Of a DNA stretch of 32,629 nucleotides, positions 1-6,262 are shown in pieces. A program made the translations under genes and the position numbers. Location of the stretch: the NCBI GenBank assembly GCA_027485815.1, contig JAIXQE010000117.1, positions 1 to 32,629 of the forward strand, given 5' to 3'. How positions within the stretch are numbered: position 1 is the stretch's first letter; each line of letters opens with the position of its first letter. The DNA is from Opitutaceae bacterium. Lineage in GTDB: Bacteria > Verrucomicrobiota > Verrucomicrobiia > Opitutales > Opitutaceae. Under the pieces are notes generated by a model. That model searched no databases. It was not told where the DNA came from and saw only the letters and a program-made list of their open reading frames with translations.

Positions 1-1263
1 ACGCTCACGCCCTACCTGCGCGAGAACGCGATGGAGCTGAACGCCTCGTTCACGCTGAGCTCGGATCCCCGGATCGACCGCGGACAGAACCGCTCCGCGG
101 GTCTGCTCGCGAAGTGGCGGCAGGACTTCGCGCCGGGCCGCACGCGGCTCATCGCCGGCCTCGACCTCGACCGCAGCCCCGGTTCCCGCCGCGAGGACAA
201 CCTCCTCGTCACCCGCACGGGCAGCGGCGCCAGCACGGTCTACACCAGCTACGTGCGTGGCACGCGGATCTACGACTACGCGGTCACGTTCCGGAGCGCC
301 GCGCCCTACCTCCACGTGGAGACGTCGCCCCTGCCACCGCTGCGCCTCACCGCGGGCCTGCGCCACGACACCCTGGAGTTCGACCTGAACAACCGGCTGC
401 CCGCAGGCACGGTCGCGGCGAACGTCTACGGCGCGACGCGCCATTACGGGCAGATCGCGAGCCACGCCGCCCGCTACAATCGCGCCAGCCCCAAGCTGGG
501 CGCCACCTGGGCGCTGAGTCCGGCGCTCCACCTATACGGCTCACTCAACGAGGGGTTCCGCGCCCCCTCCGAGAGCCAGCTCTTCCGCGCCGGCGGCGAA
601 GCCCAGCCGGCGAACGCGCTCCACCGCGCCCGCCTCGCCCTCGCCCTCCAGCCCATCCGCGCCCGCCAGGCCGAACTCGGCCTCCGCGGGGACCTCGGCC
701 GCTGGTCCGGCCACGTCGTGGCCTACGACCTCGTCAAGCGCGACGACCTCGTGAGCCAGCGCGACCTCGCCACCAACCTGACCACGAGCGTCAACGCCGG
801 CCGCACCCGCCACCGGGGCGTCGAGGCCGGCCTTGGCGGGCCGCTCCCCGGCCGGCTCCGGCTCGACGTCGCCTTCTCGCACGCCCGGCACACCTACGAG
901 GACTGGGTGACCGCCACGGCCAACTTCAGCGGCAAGGAGATGGAATCCGCCCCCCGGCTGCTGACCAACACGCGGCTCAGCTGGACCCCCGGCGGCCGCG
1001 TCTTCCTCCAGGCGGAATGGGTGCGCCTCGGCGCGTACTGGCTCGAGGCGGGCAACTCGCCCTTCTTCGGCCGCTATCCCGGCCACGACCTGGTGAATCT
1101 GCGCGCCAGTTGGCAGGCCACGCCCCGCTTCAGCCTCTTCGCCCGCGTCCTCAACGCCGGCGACCGCCGCTACGCCGACAGCGCCTCGGTTTCCTCCAAC
1201 ACGCCCGTGTTCACCCCGGGCCTCCCCCGCTCCGCCTACGGCGGCGTGGACTACCGCTGGTGA
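1..1263 (+). CDS. TonB-dependent outer membrane receptor, C-terminal part (5' truncated)
   Basis: The frame is open from the first base, so the N-terminal signal, TonB box and plug lie outside the window. The remaining 420 residues look like a TonB-dependent receptor beta-barrel: alternating polar and hydrophobic strands, the motif NEGFRAPSESQLFR typical of the mid-barrel, repeated strand/turn blocks, and a C-terminal strand ending in an aromatic residue (GGVDYRW). Such receptors import chelated metals or other large ligands across the outer membrane using TonB energy. The next gene starts 16 bp downstream and encodes a copper-domain protein, so a copper or other metal ligand is plausible, but the substrate cannot be read from the barrel. 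Family assignment is firm; substrate is inference. Confidence 0.85.
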   Translation, partial: TLTPYLRENAMELNASFTLSSDPRIDRGQNRSAGLLAKWRQDFAPGRTRLIAGLDLDRSPGSRREDNLLVTRTGSGASTVYTSYVRGTRIYDYAVTFRSAAPYLHVETSPLPPLRLTAGLRHDTLEFDLNNRLPAGTVAANVYGATRHYGQIASHAARYNRASPKLGATWALSPALHLYGSLNEGFRAPSESQLFRAGGEAQPANALHRARLALALQPIRARQAELGLRGDLGRWSGHVVAYDLVKRDDLVSQRDLATNLTTSVNAGRTRHRGVEAGLGGPLPGRLRLDVAFSHARHTYEDWVTATANFSGKEMESAPRLLTNTRLSWTPGGRVFLQAEWVRLGAYWLEAGNSPFFGRYPGHDLVNLRASWQATPRFSLFARVLNAGDRRYADSASVSSNTPVFTPGLPRSAYGGVDYRW

Positions 1264-1279: not shown

Positions 1280-3250
1280 ATGACCGCCCGTTCCCTGCTG
1301 CTCAGCCTCACGCTCCTCCTCGCCGGCCCCGCGTCCGCCGCCGACGCCCCGCACGCCCACGCCGCCCCCCCGCCGACCCCGGTCGACGGCCCCGACCTGC
1401 GCGCGTCCGCCACCGTGGACCCGCAGGGCCGGCTGTGGGTGGTGACCCACGAGCACGGGCGGGTCTTCGTGCGCCGGTCCGACGACGCGGGCGCCTCGTG
1501 GACGACGCCGGTGGTGGTCAACCCCGTGGCCGAGACGCTCGATCCCGGCGCCGACGCCCGGCCCAAGGTGCTGGTCTCCGCGGGCGGCGAGGTGTTCGTG
1601 ACGTGGACCCAGGCCCTGGCCAAGCCCTACAGCGGCGCGATCCGCCTCGCGCGTTCGCTCGACGGCGGGCGCACCTTCACCGCGCCGCTGACCGTGCACC
1701 GGCACCGCGACGAGATCACGCACCGCTTCGATGCGCTGGCGTTCGACGGCCAGGGGCGGCTCTTCGTGGCGTGGATCGACAAGCGCGACGCCGTCACGGC
1801 GGCGGGGGCCACCCCGAAGTACCGCGGGGCGGCGCTTTACTTCGCGGTTTCCGAGGACCGCGGCGCGACCTTCAAGGGCGACTTCAAGGCGGCCGACCAC
1901 GCGTGCGAGTGCTGCCGCATTGCGCTCGCCACCGACGCCACGGGCCGCGTCCACGCCCTCTGGCGCCACATCTTCGCACCCAACGTCCGCGACCACGCGA
2001 CGGCGCGGCTCAACCCCGACGGGACGGCGAGCGGCTTCCGGCGGGCGACCAGCGACGACTGGCGGCTCGACGCCTGCCCGCACCACGGACCGTCGCTCGA
2101 CTTCGACGCGGAGGGCACGGCCCACGCGGTCTGGTTCACCGCCGACGCGGAGGGCGGCATCGCCGCCTACGGCCGGCTCGGGGCGGGTGCGGCTCCGGAG
2201 GGGCGGCGCCGGCTGGGTGGCAAGTTCGCGGCCCACGCGGACCTGGCCGTGGCGGGGCGGCGGATCGCGGTGGCCTGGCGGGAGTTCGCCGAGGGCCGGA
2301 TGCACCTGCGCGCGGCGCTCTCCGAGGATGCCGGCGCGACCTGGCGGGAGCAGGCGGTGACCTCCGTCGCCGGACCCACGGGCCAGCCGCGGGTGCTCGC
2401 GCGGGGCGGCTCCTTCCTGATCTTCTGGCACACCGCGGAGCAGCCGCTGCGGGTCCACCCGCTCGAGGCGACCGTGGCGCCCCCGGCGGCGGCCGCGCCG
2501 CGTTACGACCTCCGCGGGGAGGTGATCGCGACCACTCCCGACGGCAACGGCCTGATCGTCCACCACGAGGAAATCCCCGGCTACATGCCGGCGATGACGA
2601 TGGAGTTCCTCCTGCAAGGGGCGAAGGCCGCGGACTTCCGCGAGGGGCAGAAGATCCGGGCGCGGATGTACGAGTCCGCCCCGGGCGAATTCAAGCTGGA
2701 GGACATCCGGACGGAAAGCCCGGCCCCCGCCGGAGCGGCGAAGAAGGGTGTCGAGCACGAGGCCTTCGTGGAACTGGGCGAGCGAGCGCCGGAGTTCGAG
2801 CTGCTGAACCAACTGGGGGAGAAGGTCGGGCTGGAGCGGTACCGCGGGAAGCGGATCGTCCTGAACTTCATCTTCACCCGCTGCCCCGTCGCCACGATGT
2901 GCCCGGCGGCCACCGCCCGGATGATCTCCCTCCAACGCCAGGCGGCCGCGCGCGAGATCAAGGACTTCCAGCTGCTCTCGATCTCGATGGATCCCGTCTA
3001 CGACACCCCCGCGGTGCTGCGCGAGTACGCCGAGGCGCGCGGGGTCGATCCGTCCAACTTCCAGTTCCTCACCGGCAGCGAGGCCGCGGTGCGCCGGATG
3101 CTCGCGCAGTTCGGCGTGATCGCCGAGCCCAGCGAGAACATCTGGAAGCACACCCTCGCCACCGTGCTCATCGACCGCGACGGCCGCATCAGCCAGCGCG
3201 TCGAGGGCGCCAGCTGGGACCCCGAGATCTTCCTCCGCCTGCTCCAATGA
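1280..3250 (+). CDS. Secreted three-module protein: Asp-box (BNR) propeller + CusF-like copper domain + Sco/SenC domain
   Basis: The product has 656 residues with a signal peptide (about 1-21). Residues about 40-400 form a sialidase-like propeller with four Asp boxes (67-74 SDDAGASW, 126-133, 191-198, 348-355). It carries an unusual CECC at 209-212 and CPHHG at 266-270, likely metal or redox sites. Residues about 409-477 match CusF-like copper domains (HHEEIPGYMPAMTMEF), with Met where E. coli CusF has the ligand Trp. Residues about 499-656 are a thioredoxin-fold Sco domain with Cys535, Cys541 and His624. Sco proteins deliver copper to the CuA site of cytochrome oxidase. The two C-terminal modules repeat in the gene at 4626. 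The propeller probably is not a sialidase; copper binding is inferred from the attached modules. It is closely spaced after the receptor gene and before the Cys-rich CusF gene. Confidence 0.85.
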   Translation: MTARSLLLSLTLLLAGPASAADAPHAHAAPPPTPVDGPDLRASATVDPQGRLWVVTHEHGRVFVRRSDDAGASWTTPVVVNPVAETLDPGADARPKVLVSAGGEVFVTWTQALAKPYSGAIRLARSLDGGRTFTAPLTVHRHRDEITHRFDALAFDGQGRLFVAWIDKRDAVTAAGATPKYRGAALYFAVSEDRGATFKGDFKAADHACECCRIALATDATGRVHALWRHIFAPNVRDHATARLNPDGTASGFRRATSDDWRLDACPHHGPSLDFDAEGTAHAVWFTADAEGGIAAYGRLGAGAAPEGRRRLGGKFAAHADLAVAGRRIAVAWREFAEGRMHLRAALSEDAGATWREQAVTSVAGPTGQPRVLARGGSFLIFWHTAEQPLRVHPLEATVAPPAAAAPRYDLRGEVIATTPDGNGLIVHHEEIPGYMPAMTMEFLLQGAKAADFREGQKIRARMYESAPGEFKLEDIRTESPAPAGAAKKGVEHEAFVELGERAPEFELLNQLGEKVGLERYRGKRIVLNFIFTRCPVATMCPAATARMISLQRQAAAREIKDFQLLSISMDPVYDTPAVLREYAEARGVDPSNFQFLTGSEAAVRRMLAQFGVIAEPSENIWKHTLATVLIDRDGRISQRVEGASWDPEIFLRLLQ

Positions 3251-3275: not shown

Positions 3276-3686
3276 ATGAAAACCATCCGCCTCCTCCCCC
3301 TCCTCCCCCTCCTCCCCCTCGCCGCGGCCGCCCTGTTCGCCGCCGAGGGCAAGAACTGCGGCTGCGACTGCTGCAAGGACCGCCCCAAGGGCACCGCCTG
3401 CTGCTGCTTCGAGGACACGCCCGCCGCGCCCGCGGCCGCCGCCGCCAACGACGGCATCAAGCGCCACGATCTCCGCGGGGTCGTCACCAACGTCTACGCG
3501 GACCGCTCCGCGCTGCTCGTCCGCCACGAGGAGATCCCCGGCTTCATGAAGCCGATGACGATGCTCTTCAAGGTGGACGCCGCCACGCTGCAGGCAGCGC
3601 GGAAGGGCCAGACGATCACGGCCCGGATGTCCCGCCAGGGCAACGACTGGGTGCTCGAGGACGTCAAGGTCGTCGCGCAGCCGTGA
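3276..3686 (+). CDS. Small exported Cys-rich protein with CusF-like copper-binding domain
   Basis: The product has 136 residues with a signal peptide (1-22) whose hydrophobic core is Leu-Leu-Pro repeats. A short segment holds seven cysteines (28, 30, 32, 33, 42, 43, 44; CGCDCC and CCC), followed by an Ala-rich linker. A CusF-like domain spans about 64-133 with the motif RHEEIPGFMKPMTMLF. The His/Met set fits periplasmic Cu(I) binding, and the Cys cluster could add a second metal site or serve redox. It lies 25 bp after the Sco fusion gene, and its stop codon overlaps the GTG start of modA (GTGA), so translation of modA is probably coupled to it. Domain assignment is good; the role as copper chaperone or metal buffer is inference. 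Confidence 0.8.
   Translation: MKTIRLLPLLPLLPLAAAALFAAEGKNCGCDCCKDRPKGTACCCFEDTPAAPAAAAANDGIKRHDLRGVVTNVYADRSALLVRHEEIPGFMKPMTMLFKVDAATLQAARKGQTITARMSRQGNDWVLEDVKVVAQP
3291..3319 (+). repeat. 9-bp tandem repeat (ctcctcccc, about 3.2 copies) in the signal peptide
   Basis: Three full copies of ctcctcccc plus a partial copy encode the Leu-Leu-Pro repeats in the signal peptide core of the Cys-rich CusF-like protein. Slippage by one unit would change the leader by three residues without breaking the frame. Confidence 0.8.
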
Positions 3687-4465
3687 TCCGCTCCGGGGCC
3701 GCGTTCCTCCTGGCGGCCCTGCTCGCCGCCCCTTTGCCGGCCGCCGCGCCGGTGGCGGTCGCCGCGGCCGCCAACCTGGCCCCCGTGCTCGGGCCGCTGG
3801 AGGCCGCGTTCCGCGCCGCGCGGCCGGCGGTGCAGCTGACGCTCACCGTCGGCGCGTCCGGCAGCCTGCACGCGCAGATCCGGCAAGGCGCCCCCTTTGA
3901 CGTGCTGCTGGCGGCCGACGTGGACTACCCGCGCGCGCTGGTGGCGGCGGGAGACGCCGACCCCGCCACCTTTCGGGTCTTTGCCCGCGGCCGCCTCGTG
4001 TTCTGGACCCTGCGCGGGCCCCTGGCGGGCGACGATCTGCGCGCGGCGCTGTCCGGCCGTCCCTGGGCGACCCTCGCCCTCGCGCAGCCGCGCACGGCGC
4101 CCTACGGCCGGGCCGCGGAGGCGGTGCTGCGGGAGCTGGGTTTCCCTCCCGATGCCGGCACCCGGCTGGTTCTGGGCGAGACGGTCGCCCAGGCGGCGCA
4201 ATTCGTGGAATCCGGCGCCGCGGAGGCGGGCTTCGTGGCGCTGGCGGCGGTGCTCTCGCCGCGCCTGGCGGGTCGCGGGCACTGGCGGGAGGTGCCGGCG
4301 GACCTGCATCCGGGGGTGGTTCTGGATCATGCCGCCGTGCTCACCCGTCGCGGCGTGGCACGGGGCGAGGCGCGCGCGTTCCTCGACTTCCTCGATGGGC
4401 CGGAGGCGCGGTCCATCCTGCACCGGTTCGGCTACGCGACCCCTGCTGCCCCGGCGGCGCCCTGA
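3683..4465 (+). CDS. modA: Molybdate-type ABC transporter periplasmic substrate-binding protein
   Basis: The product has 260 residues with a signal peptide (about 1-22). It shows the ModA family landmarks: AAAANLAPVLGPLEAAF at the mature N-terminus, GASGSLHAQIRQGAPFDVLLAAD (oxyanion-contacting Ser and Ala), and GETVAQAAQFVESGAAEAG in the second lobe. ModA binds molybdate or tungstate in the periplasm and hands it to ModB. The GTG start overlaps the preceding stop codon (GTGA), tying it to the copper-protein operon. A perfect hairpin follows the stop directly. ModB lies 1.1 kb downstream beyond a CusF-Sco gene, and no ModC ATPase is present. The family is clear; molybdate as ligand is from family knowledge, and another oxyanion cannot be excluded. 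Confidence 0.88.
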   Translation: MIRSGAAFLLAALLAAPLPAAAPVAVAAAANLAPVLGPLEAAFRAARPAVQLTLTVGASGSLHAQIRQGAPFDVLLAADVDYPRALVAAGDADPATFRVFARGRLVFWTLRGPLAGDDLRAALSGRPWATLALAQPRTAPYGRAAEAVLRELGFPPDAGTRLVLGETVAQAAQFVESGAAEAGFVALAAVLSPRLAGRGHWREVPADLHPGVVLDHAAVLTRRGVARGEARAFLDFLDGPEARSILHRFGYATPAAPAAP

Positions 4466-4468
4466 GGG

Positions 4469-4502
4469 CGCGAGGCCGGTGCCTCGCGGGGTGGCCCACC
4501 CC
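4469..4502 (+). terminator. Hairpin pair after modA (possible terminator or attenuator)
   Basis: Four bases after the modA stop there is a perfect 8-bp stem (CGCGAGGC / GCCTCGCG, 4-nt loop CGGT, 4469-4488). A second dyad, GGGGTGG-C-CCACCCC (4488-4502), follows at once. There is no T-run, so it is not a classical intrinsic terminator. It may stop or stabilise the upstream transcript. Confidence 0.5.
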
Positions 4503-4530
4503 TACGCAATCGATGCACGCCAGTGCGTAG
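4502..4530. other. Inverted repeat CTACGCA-15 nt-TGCGTAG upstream of the CusF-Sco gene
   Basis: A perfect 7-bp inverted repeat with a 15-nt spacer lies in the 160-bp gap between modA and the CusF-Sco gene. It could be an operator for the downstream genes, but it does not resemble a ModE box. No convincing -35/-10 pair was seen in this gap. Confidence 0.3.
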
Positions 4531-4625
4531 AAGATGAACGGGCCGACCGCTGGACGCCGCCGCACCTCCCGCTAGCCTCACGGTCACCAACCCGGGCCCT
4601 TGGTCCGATTCAACCCGTTCCCGCC

Positions 4626-5510
4626 ATGAACCTTCTCCGCCGCATCCTGCCCGTCTTCCTGGCCGTGGGAGCCCTGCCCTTGGCGGCCGCCACCGCCCCG
4701 CGCCACGACCTCACCGGCAAGGTGGTGGCGGTCGATCCGGCTCGCCACGTGATCCGCGTCCACCACGAGCCGATCCCGGGCCTGATGCCGGAGATGGCGA
4801 TGGACTTCACCGTGCCCGGCGCGGATCTCGGCGCGTTCCAGCCGGGCCAGCGGGTGAAGGCGCGGCTCTACGCCGTGGACAAGGGGGAGTTCGCCCTGGA
4901 GGGCCTGCGGGTCGCGGACCCGGAGCAGGAGCGCCTGCTCGCGGACGCGGCCTTCATGCTGCAGTCCGACACCGCCGCCCGCGAGCCGCACGTGTTCCGC
5001 GAGATCGGCGAGGACGCCCCGTACTTCAAGCTCTACAACCACCGCGGCGAGGTGGTCTCGCTCGAGTCCTACCGCGGCCAGCGCGTGGTGCTGAACTTCA
5101 TCTTCACCCGCTGCCCGGTGCCGACGATGTGCGCGGCCGCGACCGCGCGGATGATGGAGATCCAGCAGCAGGCGCGCCTGCGCGGCCTGCGGGACATCCA
5201 GTTCCTCTCCATTTCTCTCGACCCCGACTACGACACGCCAGCGGTCCTGCGCGCCTACGCGGCCGCCCGGGGCATCGACACCAGCAACTTCAGCTTCCTC
5301 ACCGGTCCCGCCGGGGCCGTGCGCAGCCTGCTCGCCCAGAGCGGGGTCTTCGTCGTGCCTTCGGCCGGCCTGTGGAACCACACCATCTCCACCCTCGTGA
5401 TCGACCGTACCGGCCGGATCGCCGACCGCTACGAGGGGGCCAACTGGGACATCGGGGCGATGCTGCAGCGGCTCTCGCCCGAGGCCGAGGGCACCACCGC
5501 CGCGCGCTGA
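4626..5510 (+). CDS. Exported CusF-like / Sco (SenC) fusion protein
   Basis: The product has 294 residues with a signal peptide (about 1-22). A CusF-like domain at about 27-96 carries HHEPIPGLMPEMAMDF. A thioredoxin-fold Sco domain spans about 124-285 with Cys163, Cys169 (TRCPVPTMC) and His252 (WNHT). Sco domains bind copper through two Cys and one His and help assemble the CuA centre of cytochrome c oxidase. The usual Sco spacing is CX3C; here it is CX5C, as in the 1280-3250 protein, to which this gene is clearly paralogous over both modules. It lies between modA and modB after a 160-bp gap with hairpins, so it may start its own transcript. Fusions of a copper domain with Sco are known; the insertion into a mod locus is unusual. 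Confidence 0.87.
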   Translation: MNLLRRILPVFLAVGALPLAAATAPRHDLTGKVVAVDPARHVIRVHHEPIPGLMPEMAMDFTVPGADLGAFQPGQRVKARLYAVDKGEFALEGLRVADPEQERLLADAAFMLQSDTAAREPHVFREIGEDAPYFKLYNHRGEVVSLESYRGQRVVLNFIFTRCPVPTMCAAATARMMEIQQQARLRGLRDIQFLSISLDPDYDTPAVLRAYAAARGIDTSNFSFLTGPAGAVRSLLAQSGVFVVPSAGLWNHTISTLVIDRTGRIADRYEGANWDIGAMLQRLSPEAEGTTAAR

Positions 5511-5566: not shown

Positions 5567-6262
5567 TTGCCCGACGCCGCCTCCAGCTTCCTCGGGCTGC
5601 CGGCCCCGCTCTGGCAGTCCCTCTGGCTCACCCTGCGGCTGGCCGCGCTCACGACCTTGGTGCTGGGCCTGATCGGGCTGCCGCTGGCGCACTGGCTCAA
5701 CACCACCCGCTGGCGGCTCGCGCCCGCCCTCGAGACGCTGGTCGCGCTCCCCATCGTGCTCCCGCCGACGGTGATCGGATTCTACCTGCTGGTCGCGTTC
5801 TCACCGCGGCATCTTCCCGGCAGCTGGTGGCGCGACGCCACCGGCGCCCCCCTGGCGTTCTCCTTCACCGGCCTCGTCATCGCCTCGGTGATTTACTCCC
5901 TCCCCTTCGCCGTGCAGCCCTTCCAGGCCGCGCTGCGGGCAGTGCCGCGGGATCTGCTGGACGCCGGGCAGGCGCTGGGGGCGGGACCGCTCCGCGTTTT
6001 CCTGCGCCTGCACCTGCCGCTGGCGCGGCGGGGCATCACCGCCGGCCTGACCCTCGGGTTCGCGCACACACTGGGCGAGTTCGGCGTGGTGCTGATGATC
6101 GGGGGCTCGATCCCGGGCGTGACCCGCGTGGCGAGCATCGCGTTGTACGACGAGGTGCAGGCGCTCGACTACCCTCAGGCCCACGCCTTCGCGGCGGTAT
6201 TGCTGGTGCTCTCGTTCGCCCTGCTGCTGGTCGTGACCCTGCTGCAGCGGCGTCGGGGCTGA
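5567..6262 (+). CDS. modB: Molybdate-type ABC transporter permease
   Basis: The product has 231 residues with about five or six membrane segments. ModB/CysT-type permease landmarks are LPPTVIGFYLL (65-75), the cytoplasmic EAA loop (about 130-150, DAGQALGAGPLRVF) that contacts the ATPase, and HTLGEFGVVLMIGG (167-180). It forms the inner-membrane channel for the oxyanion delivered by ModA. The only start giving the full first membrane segment is TTG at 5567, because an in-frame stop lies just upstream and no ATG occurs near the N-terminus. It lies 56 bp after the CusF-Sco gene. No ModC follows within the window, so it must use an ATPase encoded elsewhere, or the system is incomplete. Confidence 0.88.
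   Translation: MPDAASSFLGLPAPLWQSLWLTLRLAALTTLVLGLIGLPLAHWLNTTRWRLAPALETLVALPIVLPPTVIGFYLLVAFSPRHLPGSWWRDATGAPLAFSFTGLVIASVIYSLPFAVQPFQAALRAVPRDLLDAGQALGAGPLRVFLRLHLPLARRGITAGLTLGFAHTLGEFGVVLMIGGSIPGVTRVASIALYDEVQALDYPQAHAFAAVLLVLSFALLLVVTLLQRRRG

Follow-up and report, generated by a model that had tools for sequence, protein, structure and literature searches.

Why should a single protein join a sialidase-like propeller to two copper chaperones? The question is raised by a gene at positions 1280-3250 of a 32,629-nucleotide stretch of Opitutaceae DNA (assembly GCA_027485815.1, contig JAIXQE010000117.1), the whole of which is called here the window. On balance, we think it probable that the propeller is a periplasmic copper-handling protein, a Cu(I)-thiolate relay leading from a TonB receptor to the chaperones of oxidase assembly. 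The gene and the parts of its product are the following.

1280..3250, + strand: fused Asp-box propeller, CusF and Sco protein; ATG start, open reading frame (ORF) of 656 amino acids (Pfam, AlphaFold, motif positions)
1400..2479, + strand: propeller domain, residues ~41-400, with four Asp boxes (AlphaFold2 model, Asp boxes)
1904..1915, + strand: CECC, residues 209-212, in a predicted loop linking the outer strand of a blade with the inner strand of the following one (motif position, conservation, DSSP)
2075..2089, + strand: CPHHG, residues 266-270, in the predicted equivalent loop one blade on (motif position, conservation, DSSP)
2504..2707, + strand: CusF-like domain (PF11604)
2561-2602, + strand: HH...M-T-M motif of the CusF domain, residues 428-441 (motif position)
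2789..3187, + strand: Sco domain with Cys535, Cys541 and His624 (PF02630)
2882-2902, + strand: CPVATMC of the Sco domain (motif position)

Both copper domains score above their Pfam cut-offs: SCO1-SenC (PF02630) at residues 504-636 (E 2.6e-24; 86.1 bits, cut-off 22.8) and CusF_Ec (PF11604) at residues 409-476 (E 1.6e-8; 34.7 bits, cut-off 27). Four Asp boxes lie in the propeller (residues 67-74, 126-133, 191-198 and 348-355). The three-part composition that the initial annotation had read from the letters alone is borne out, and CECC and CPHHG stand where it had placed them. The ligands of CusF are His and M-x-M, and the matched domain has both (HH...MTM); searched against PDB sequences, the CusF piece gave no real match. 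Sco binds copper through CxxxC plus a conserved His. The Sco domain of our protein has two cysteines and His624, but the cysteines are spaced C-x5-C; the same departure from CxxxC is seen in both Sco domains of the window, that of the fused protein (2882-2902) and that of a second CusF-Sco gene. Four of the six cysteines of the whole protein belong to the propeller and two to Sco. The N-terminus, as read by eye from the translation and not computed, resembles a signal peptide, so that the protein reads like an exported one. Sialidase-type matches stay below threshold, BNR_2 slightly (residues 61-230; E 5.6e-7; 29.6 bits, cut-off 31.4) and BNR likewise (25.5 bits, cut-off 27). The FRIP/YRIP arginine motif is a hallmark of GH33 sialidases; the 656-residue translation, inspected by eye, contains no RIP tripeptide and hence no FRIP/YRIP.

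How widespread is this fusion? A genome-collection search with the propeller, seeded with six peptides including ADHACECC, returned 26 loci in Opitutae, beta-, gamma- and alphaproteobacteria and Nitrospirota. Among the profiled genes, a C-terminal extension (259 residues) is found only in L003, L004 and L005 (and in L094 and L095, which are second fetches); in the other core genes, that is, propeller genes scoring at least 240 bits, the frame ends at most 21 residues past the propeller match. L004 and L005 come from other Opitutae assemblies and share the 656-residue architecture of the window at 92% and 91% identity. When these three sequences are compared, propeller, CusF and Sco all give dN/dS values of about 0.05-0.11, and the first 40 residues higher ones (0.20-0.83). 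An assembly chimera as the origin of the fusion was rejected, because two further assemblies have the same architecture under the same constraint. We regard the three-part protein as real and kept by purifying selection but local, being limited to three close Opitutae relatives. The remaining extended locus, L003 (JAIYCN010000074.1), is binned as Rubrivivax, carries the Opitutae fusion and agrees with the window at every position of the match (100% identity); we do not count it as an independent case, and its contig is probably mis-binned.

What the family as a whole shares is a pair of cysteine motifs. In an alignment of 25 sequences, the window's among them, H207, C209, E210, C211, C212, C266, P267, H268 and G270 are invariant. 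For counting, 45 core genes were used (L003, L009, L022, L094 and L095 were left out as duplicate or partial, and L001 and the window itself do not belong to the set). CxCC and, some 50 residues further on, CPxxG are both present in all 45. The first motif reads CECC in 44 and CQCC in one; the second reads CPHHG in 38, CPHQG in four, CPHNG in two and CPEHG in one, so that His268 is present in 44 of 45. Lower-scoring, distant genes have both motifs in ten of 11 cases, the first as CTCC, CSCC, CACC, CDCC or CECC, and the lone exception is the gene of L026, which is without its middle part. This short propeller copy (L026:3-641, Nitrosomonas eutropha Nm24) appears as two matches, with the part that would carry CxCC missing. 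In a further set, which partly overlaps with the core, both motifs occur in all 47 profile matches, 23 of which score below 200 bits. Since one of the seeds was ADHACECC, the motif is present partly by construction in the 24 of 45 core genes taken from loci of the peptide-seeded search; later profile searches were not seeded in this way, though the profile includes the motif. Judged by these alignments, the recurrence is beyond chance, and the CxCC and CP motifs are hallmarks of the propeller family.

The family is scattered and not universal, since in a phylum sample only 16 of 398 Pseudomonadota genomes gave a propeller match at E <= 1e-30 (the centre, G072, counted; G360 with a distant member only). 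A degenerate DNA pattern (CECC plus a partial codon) matched 143 of 288 Verrucomicrobiota genomes, a figure that is uninformative as the reversed control was also frequent. Each of the Nitrosomonas genomes searched (L020, L098, L099, L100) has two to three propeller matches.

Which genes accompany the propeller? A same-strand ORF precedes 44 of the 45 core genes, and according to Pfam it is a TonB-receptor barrel in 38 of these 44, ExbD in two and an aminotransferase in one. A receptor profile gave a count of 40, which is not used here, since all 44 upstream ORFs had gone into the profile, including six that are not receptors by Pfam. The OprC-type receptor TIGR01778 is not among the NCBIfam matches of three receptors scanned singly, the pooled receptor scan listing 25 of 44 families. 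At the first propeller copies of L020 and L098, a receptor-sized ORF lies after the gene and not before it. On the other side, 38 of 44 core genes (46 with L009 included, less two at contig edges) are followed, at a distance of 600 bases or less, by a gene for a CxxC thioredoxin-like protein, as detected by a profile search; it is missing from L004, L005, L091, L028 and the first copies of L020 and L098. A simple ORF picker, which put some genes on the wrong strand (at L118 and L126, for example), missed the thioredoxin-like genes of L101, L104 and L107, found by the profile. When 34 of the thioredoxin-like proteins are aligned, the CxxC, one Trp, one Pro and one Gly are invariant. Their matches to AhpC-TSA/thioredoxin families are weak (AhpC-TSA in 24 of 34), and their solved relatives are of the ResA/TlpA type.

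Within Opitutae, unfused genes with available downstream sequence are followed by the thioredoxin-like gene in six of seven cases (L006, L007, L008, L009, L090 and L092; not L091). The fused genes (window, L004, L005) have none, and CusF-Sco is fused to them instead. Sco itself has a thioredoxin fold.

In part of the family, known copper genes adjoin this cassette. Pfam scanning of 128 further neighbours out of 157 called (18 longer than 700 amino acids were excluded, and 11 more were removed manually, among them repeats and near-duplicates) gave 106 families, the commonest being DUF2946 (9) and PCuAC (6), then ExbB (3). DUF2946, or CruR, is a copper-sensing upstream ORF at the head of a Bordetella TonB-receptor operon; its CXXC, through which it senses copper, is 45 residues distant from a RAPP near the C-terminus (PMC9426467, abstract and sections 9 and 10). 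Whole-genome scans for both families were made on a chosen set of 32 propeller genomes (outside it are, for example, G059, G060, G066, G068, G071, G074 and G360). PCuAC gave 34 matches in 21 of the 32 genomes; ten of these matches, as we read the coordinates, lie at most ~3 kb downstream of the propeller on the same strand (G215, G276, G368, G293, G457, G111, G460, G411, G322, G064). DUF2946 (PF11162) gave 39 matches in 16 genomes; in 13 of the 32 it is found ~2.2-3.2 kb upstream of the propeller, again on the same strand (G322, G400, G111, G457, G368, G293, G460, G276, G215, G411, G263, G076 and, below the cut-off, G075). Altogether, PCuAC, DUF2946 or both adjoin the cassette in 14 of 32 genomes, among which related ones are not independent events; by rough arithmetic, far fewer than one such placement would be expected by chance. 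In 14 named control genomes, PCuAC occurs in three and DUF2946 in one. At the scan thresholds, neither family was matched in the host genome of the window (G000, 4.08 Mb) and five given genomes of its genus, nor in Nitrosomonas G072 and G073.

The fullest cassette has the order leader, receptor, propeller, thioredoxin-like protein, PCuAC. In the leaders of seven proteobacterial or similar loci (nine counting L112 and L113), the stretch between CxxC and the last PP is 44-49 residues long. At the head of Opitutae cassettes stands an ORF of 126-140 amino acids in which CxxC and a C-terminal PPR are present in all seven aligned examples, CxxC and the last PP being 62-66 residues apart:

L004:3236-3649, leader ORF
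L005:3236-3649, leader ORF
L007:361-738, leader ORF
L008:3164-3541, leader ORF
L090:8416-8796, leader ORF
L091:10784-11173, leader ORF
L093:3708-4127, leader ORF

The leader of L004, the sole Opitutae leader scanned, has no Pfam or NCBIfam match. These ORFs may encode CruR-like copper leader peptides of a new class.

Distant members of the family are found in another genomic setting. Plasmid relatives from Roseobacteraceae and Methylomagnum (27-29% identity; four records opened of 63 matched) lie among genes for copper oxidase, plastocyanin/azurin-type proteins, CopC, CopD and cytochrome c. On the Methylomagnum ishizawai plasmid (L031), a CTCC propeller is located directly 5' of a CopC gene, with genes annotated as amoA and amoB ~5 kb away. 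Twelve Opitutae regions with distant members, hand-picked and not random, contain multicopper oxidase in six, CopB in four, heavy-metal ATPase in three and TonB receptors in three, as judged by Pfam on one or two members per cluster with the rest taken alike. The thioredoxin-like profile has no match in these 12 regions, and among the 11 distant genes only one (L100, Nitrosomonas) has the thioredoxin-like gene beside it. In public genomes, distant relatives bear the label 'sialidase family protein'. With such members in copper-resistance clusters, the propeller family appears in both copper-import-like and copper-resistance settings.

Could the two motifs form one metal site? The AlphaFold2 model of the propeller, built from 25 sequences (pLDDT 86.8, pTM 0.88), is seven-bladed by our reading of its strands. 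Structural comparison places CylK at the top (Z 30.7, rmsd 3.5, 344 aligned), with PLL-type lectins close to it (Z ~28-29, rmsd ~3, ~307 aligned) and YncE below 36 other entries (Z 23.9, rmsd 3.0, 285 aligned); the first ranks in Foldseek are a putative neuraminidase and PLL2. In the predicted model, CECC (model residues 189-192) falls between strands 179-187 and 195-198, and CPHHG (246-250) between strands 230-235 and 252-255. Each loop would link a blade's outer strand to the inner strand of the blade after it, the two occupying the same position in adjacent blades. Counted back from the first residue of the inner strand, positions -6, -4 and -3 carry candidate ligands in each loop (C-x-C-C in the one, C-x-H-H in the other). 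With the motif so repeated in register on neighbouring blades, close to the central channel, a metal site shared between them is plausible. The full-length model (pLDDT 70.2) is poor over CusF and Sco, since no more than three sequences extend over these domains; one alignment (A3) with two extra CusF-Sco rows was unusable, as these rows spread over the propeller.

The relay may then be pictured as follows. The propeller would take copper that has crossed the outer membrane via the TonB-dependent receptor and hold it, most likely as Cu(I), on a putative site made of the four constant cysteines, CxCC from one blade and the cysteine of the CP motif from the next, His268 being close by and, in many members, His269 as well. 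The thioredoxin-like partner would keep the propeller thiols reduced. Copper would be handed to PCuAC in some Proteobacteria and Nitrospiria and to CusF and Sco in these Opitutae; in the window lineage, fusion of propeller, CusF and Sco in one chain would hard-wire the hand-off and would also bring a thioredoxin fold in place of the separate thioredoxin-like gene. We infer that the cysteines bind copper, in which oxidation state it is held, which way it is passed on and what the thioredoxin-like protein does. Support for the relay comes from the purifying selection on the CusF/Sco fusion, the constant motifs, the order of the cassette, the DUF2946 and PCuAC neighbours, the distant copper clusters, the absence of the thioredoxin-like gene where the propeller is fused and, for one of the two receptors searched (that of Nitrosomonas), the copper importer CrtA (9RVQ) as third-best solved relative. 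The initial annotation had suggested that the propeller may be a copper-scavenging or docking module that feeds the chaperones attached to it. Gene context ties many members to copper, in agreement with the first part of this proposal; the second part has to be recast, as the propeller is normally a separate gene between TonB receptor and thioredoxin-like gene and the fusion is local. In the searches made, no characterised homologue with another function, which had been named in advance as counter-evidence, turned up.

Several observations weigh against the relay. Eighteen of the 32 genomes, Nitrosomonas G072 and G073 included, have neither PCuAC nor DUF2946 beside the cassette by these scans, 11 of the 32 give no PCuAC match anywhere, and 24 of 34 PCuAC and 26 of 39 DUF2946 matches are located elsewhere than at the cassette. 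The best solved match of both receptors searched is YncD/PqqU (E 5.5e-39 for the Nitrosomonas and 1.1e-15 for the Opitutae receptor). The match of CrtA to the Nitrosomonas receptor is partial and stands behind YncD (E 8.9e-15); the Opitutae receptor matches YncD and the colicin I receptor (~E 1e-15) and does not match CrtA at E <= 1e-5. His207, invariant in the 25 aligned sequences, is His in just 33 of 45 core genes, His269 is present in 39 of 45, and CPMDG or CPVNG is common among distant members in the set of 47 matches. As far as the alignments go, it is the cysteines that are constant and not the histidines, and the relay keeps its standing despite the variable His207 because it rests on the cysteines. 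The periplasm, finally, is oxidising, and four cysteines can make two disulphides.

This last point leads to a rather unlikely alternative, in which the four cysteines would be structural disulphides stiffening the top loops and the propeller would serve as a docking scaffold, binding the receptor or the chaperones and not copper. Propellers are common as protein-docking folds, structural disulphides would be conserved too, the thioredoxin-like partner could do disulphide shuffling and the neighbouring histidines are not constant. However, CxCC with its two adjacent cysteines would make an awkward disulphide pattern, His268 goes with the cysteines in all core genes but one, and CxCC is kept in copper-resistance clusters where the cassette is absent.

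Less likely again is a thiol-driven copper reductase, a cysteine pair of which would reduce an imported Cu(II) chelate to Cu(I) and be re-reduced by the thioredoxin-like protein, the propeller taking the place that PepSY_TM has in CrtA operons. As the main text of PMC12914433 has it, chelated Cu(II) is taken up by CrtA, and in >75% of loci a PepSY_TM protein comes next, whose distant homologue FoxB is a reductase; in our loci it is the propeller that comes after the receptor, mostly with the thioredoxin-like gene next. PepSY_TM is not among the 25 neighbour families listed of 106, which does not exclude its presence. The scarcity of the thioredoxin-like gene around distant members, one of 11 genes and none of the 12 chosen Opitutae regions, speaks against a reductase that depends on it.

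Import by the cassette of an organic cofactor or chelate, pyrroloquinoline quinone (PQQ) for instance, with the propeller binding this molecule, as could be guessed for YncD-YncE of E. coli, is improbable. Both receptors searched do match YncD/PqqU best, at the E values given above, and the structural matches of the propeller include YncE, but 36 entries outrank it there, and the neighbouring DUF2946/CruR, PCuAC, CusF and Sco genes code for copper proteins. Activity as a sialidase or as another glycan hydrolase, in keeping with the public label, the Asp boxes and the fold, is hardly credible and was set aside for the window protein in view of its sub-threshold BNR matches, the absence of RIP, the constant cysteine motifs, the copper neighbours and the seven blades read from the model against six in GH33. 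The earlier view of CECC and CPHHG as metal ligands and not sialidase residues finds support as regards sialidase, the propeller not looking like a typical one, and the motifs proved to be family hallmarks; on the metal side, the four cysteines are constant and the histidines vary, all of them being putative ligands.

Beyond the relay itself, it seems an even bet that we are dealing with an unnamed superfamily of periplasmic seven-bladed Asp-box propellers, with a Cys4 (+His) Cu(I) site over two adjacent blades, which occur in copper-import and copper-resistance operons of several phyla under the label of sialidases, and for which the fusion shows the route from propeller to CusF to Sco. If this is true, the Asp-box propeller would gain a role in metal trafficking, and a 'sialidase' label in public genomes would be corrected. 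Copper import of Gram-negative bacteria is poorly characterised (PMC12914433, abstract). The taker of copper from the outer-membrane receptor seems to be a gap in that picture, and a conserved protein encoded directly after the receptor gene, in ammonia oxidisers too, is a direct candidate for it. The fusion suggests an order of transfer inside one molecule, which makes the relay testable on a single purified protein. In the literature searched, we met with no account of CxCC propellers in copper operons; the gene may figure under a different name in the supplementary operon tables of PMC9426467 and PMC12914433.

The genes around it in the window include these:

1..1263, + strand: TonB-dependent receptor, C-terminal 420 residues, gene cut (PF00593, E 6.6e-41; contig coordinates; longer homologues directly upstream in L004 and L005)
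3276..3686, + strand: separate CusF-like protein with Cys-rich N-terminal part CGCDCC...CCCF (PF11604, E 1.2e-9; same gene in L004 and L005)
4626..5510, + strand: second CusF-Sco protein, without propeller (PF11604 and PF02630 in frame 3897-5507; start counted by hand)

The receptor gene is incomplete because the contig (G000:C132) begins at base 1 of the window. A gene like that of the second CusF-Sco protein also follows in L004. On either side of this gene, within the copper cluster, lie ModA- and ModB-like molybdate transporter genes (3683-4465 and 5567-6262); a ModC-like ATPase was not present among the nine window proteins scanned with Pfam, and a viral-contig scan found nothing. With five Sco and four CusF matches in the host genome, the 1280-3250 locus is not its sole source of either.

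How does the cassette compare with known systems? With GH33 sialidases and PLL lectins the propeller has the fold in common, and with sialidases the Asp boxes; it differs from them in the constant cysteine motif, the copper context and the lack of FRIP/YRIP. In E. coli, YncD (PqqU) adjoins the periplasmic seven-bladed propeller YncE, a pair that is like our cassette in placing a TonB receptor beside a propeller and whose two members both appear among our matches. To our knowledge, YncE is not an Asp-box propeller of the CxCC family, and nothing in our analysis links the pair to copper. The copper-starvation operon pcuABCDE of Bradyrhizobium japonicum encodes the TonB receptor PcuB and the PCuAC chaperone PcuC, two components that the propeller cassette also has; we know of no propeller in it. 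This operon is cited in PMC12617631 (part of the text). The fusion of Cu/Zn-SOD with a propeller lactonase in Deinococcus (PMC12362111, part of the text) is likewise a natural joining of a propeller to a copper protein, with another propeller and another copper domain.

Close, too, is the CruR-CrtA (BfrG)-PepSY_TM operon of Bordetella, whose receptor CrtA imports chelated Cu(II) for haem-copper oxidases (PMC12914433, main text). There, as in part of our genomes, a DUF2946 leader precedes a TonB receptor; besides the PepSY_TM genes that usually follow crtA, a few loci have PCuAC and ScoI (PMC12914433, main text), and AhpC_TSA genes are named in cruR operons (PMC9426467, abstract and sections 9 and 10). 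The words 'propeller' and 'sialidase' are absent from the main text of PMC12914433, and the abstract and sections 9 and 10 of PMC9426467 name no propeller. Where that operon has PepSY_TM after the receptor, ours has the CxCC propeller and, in most cases, a thioredoxin-like protein next to it.

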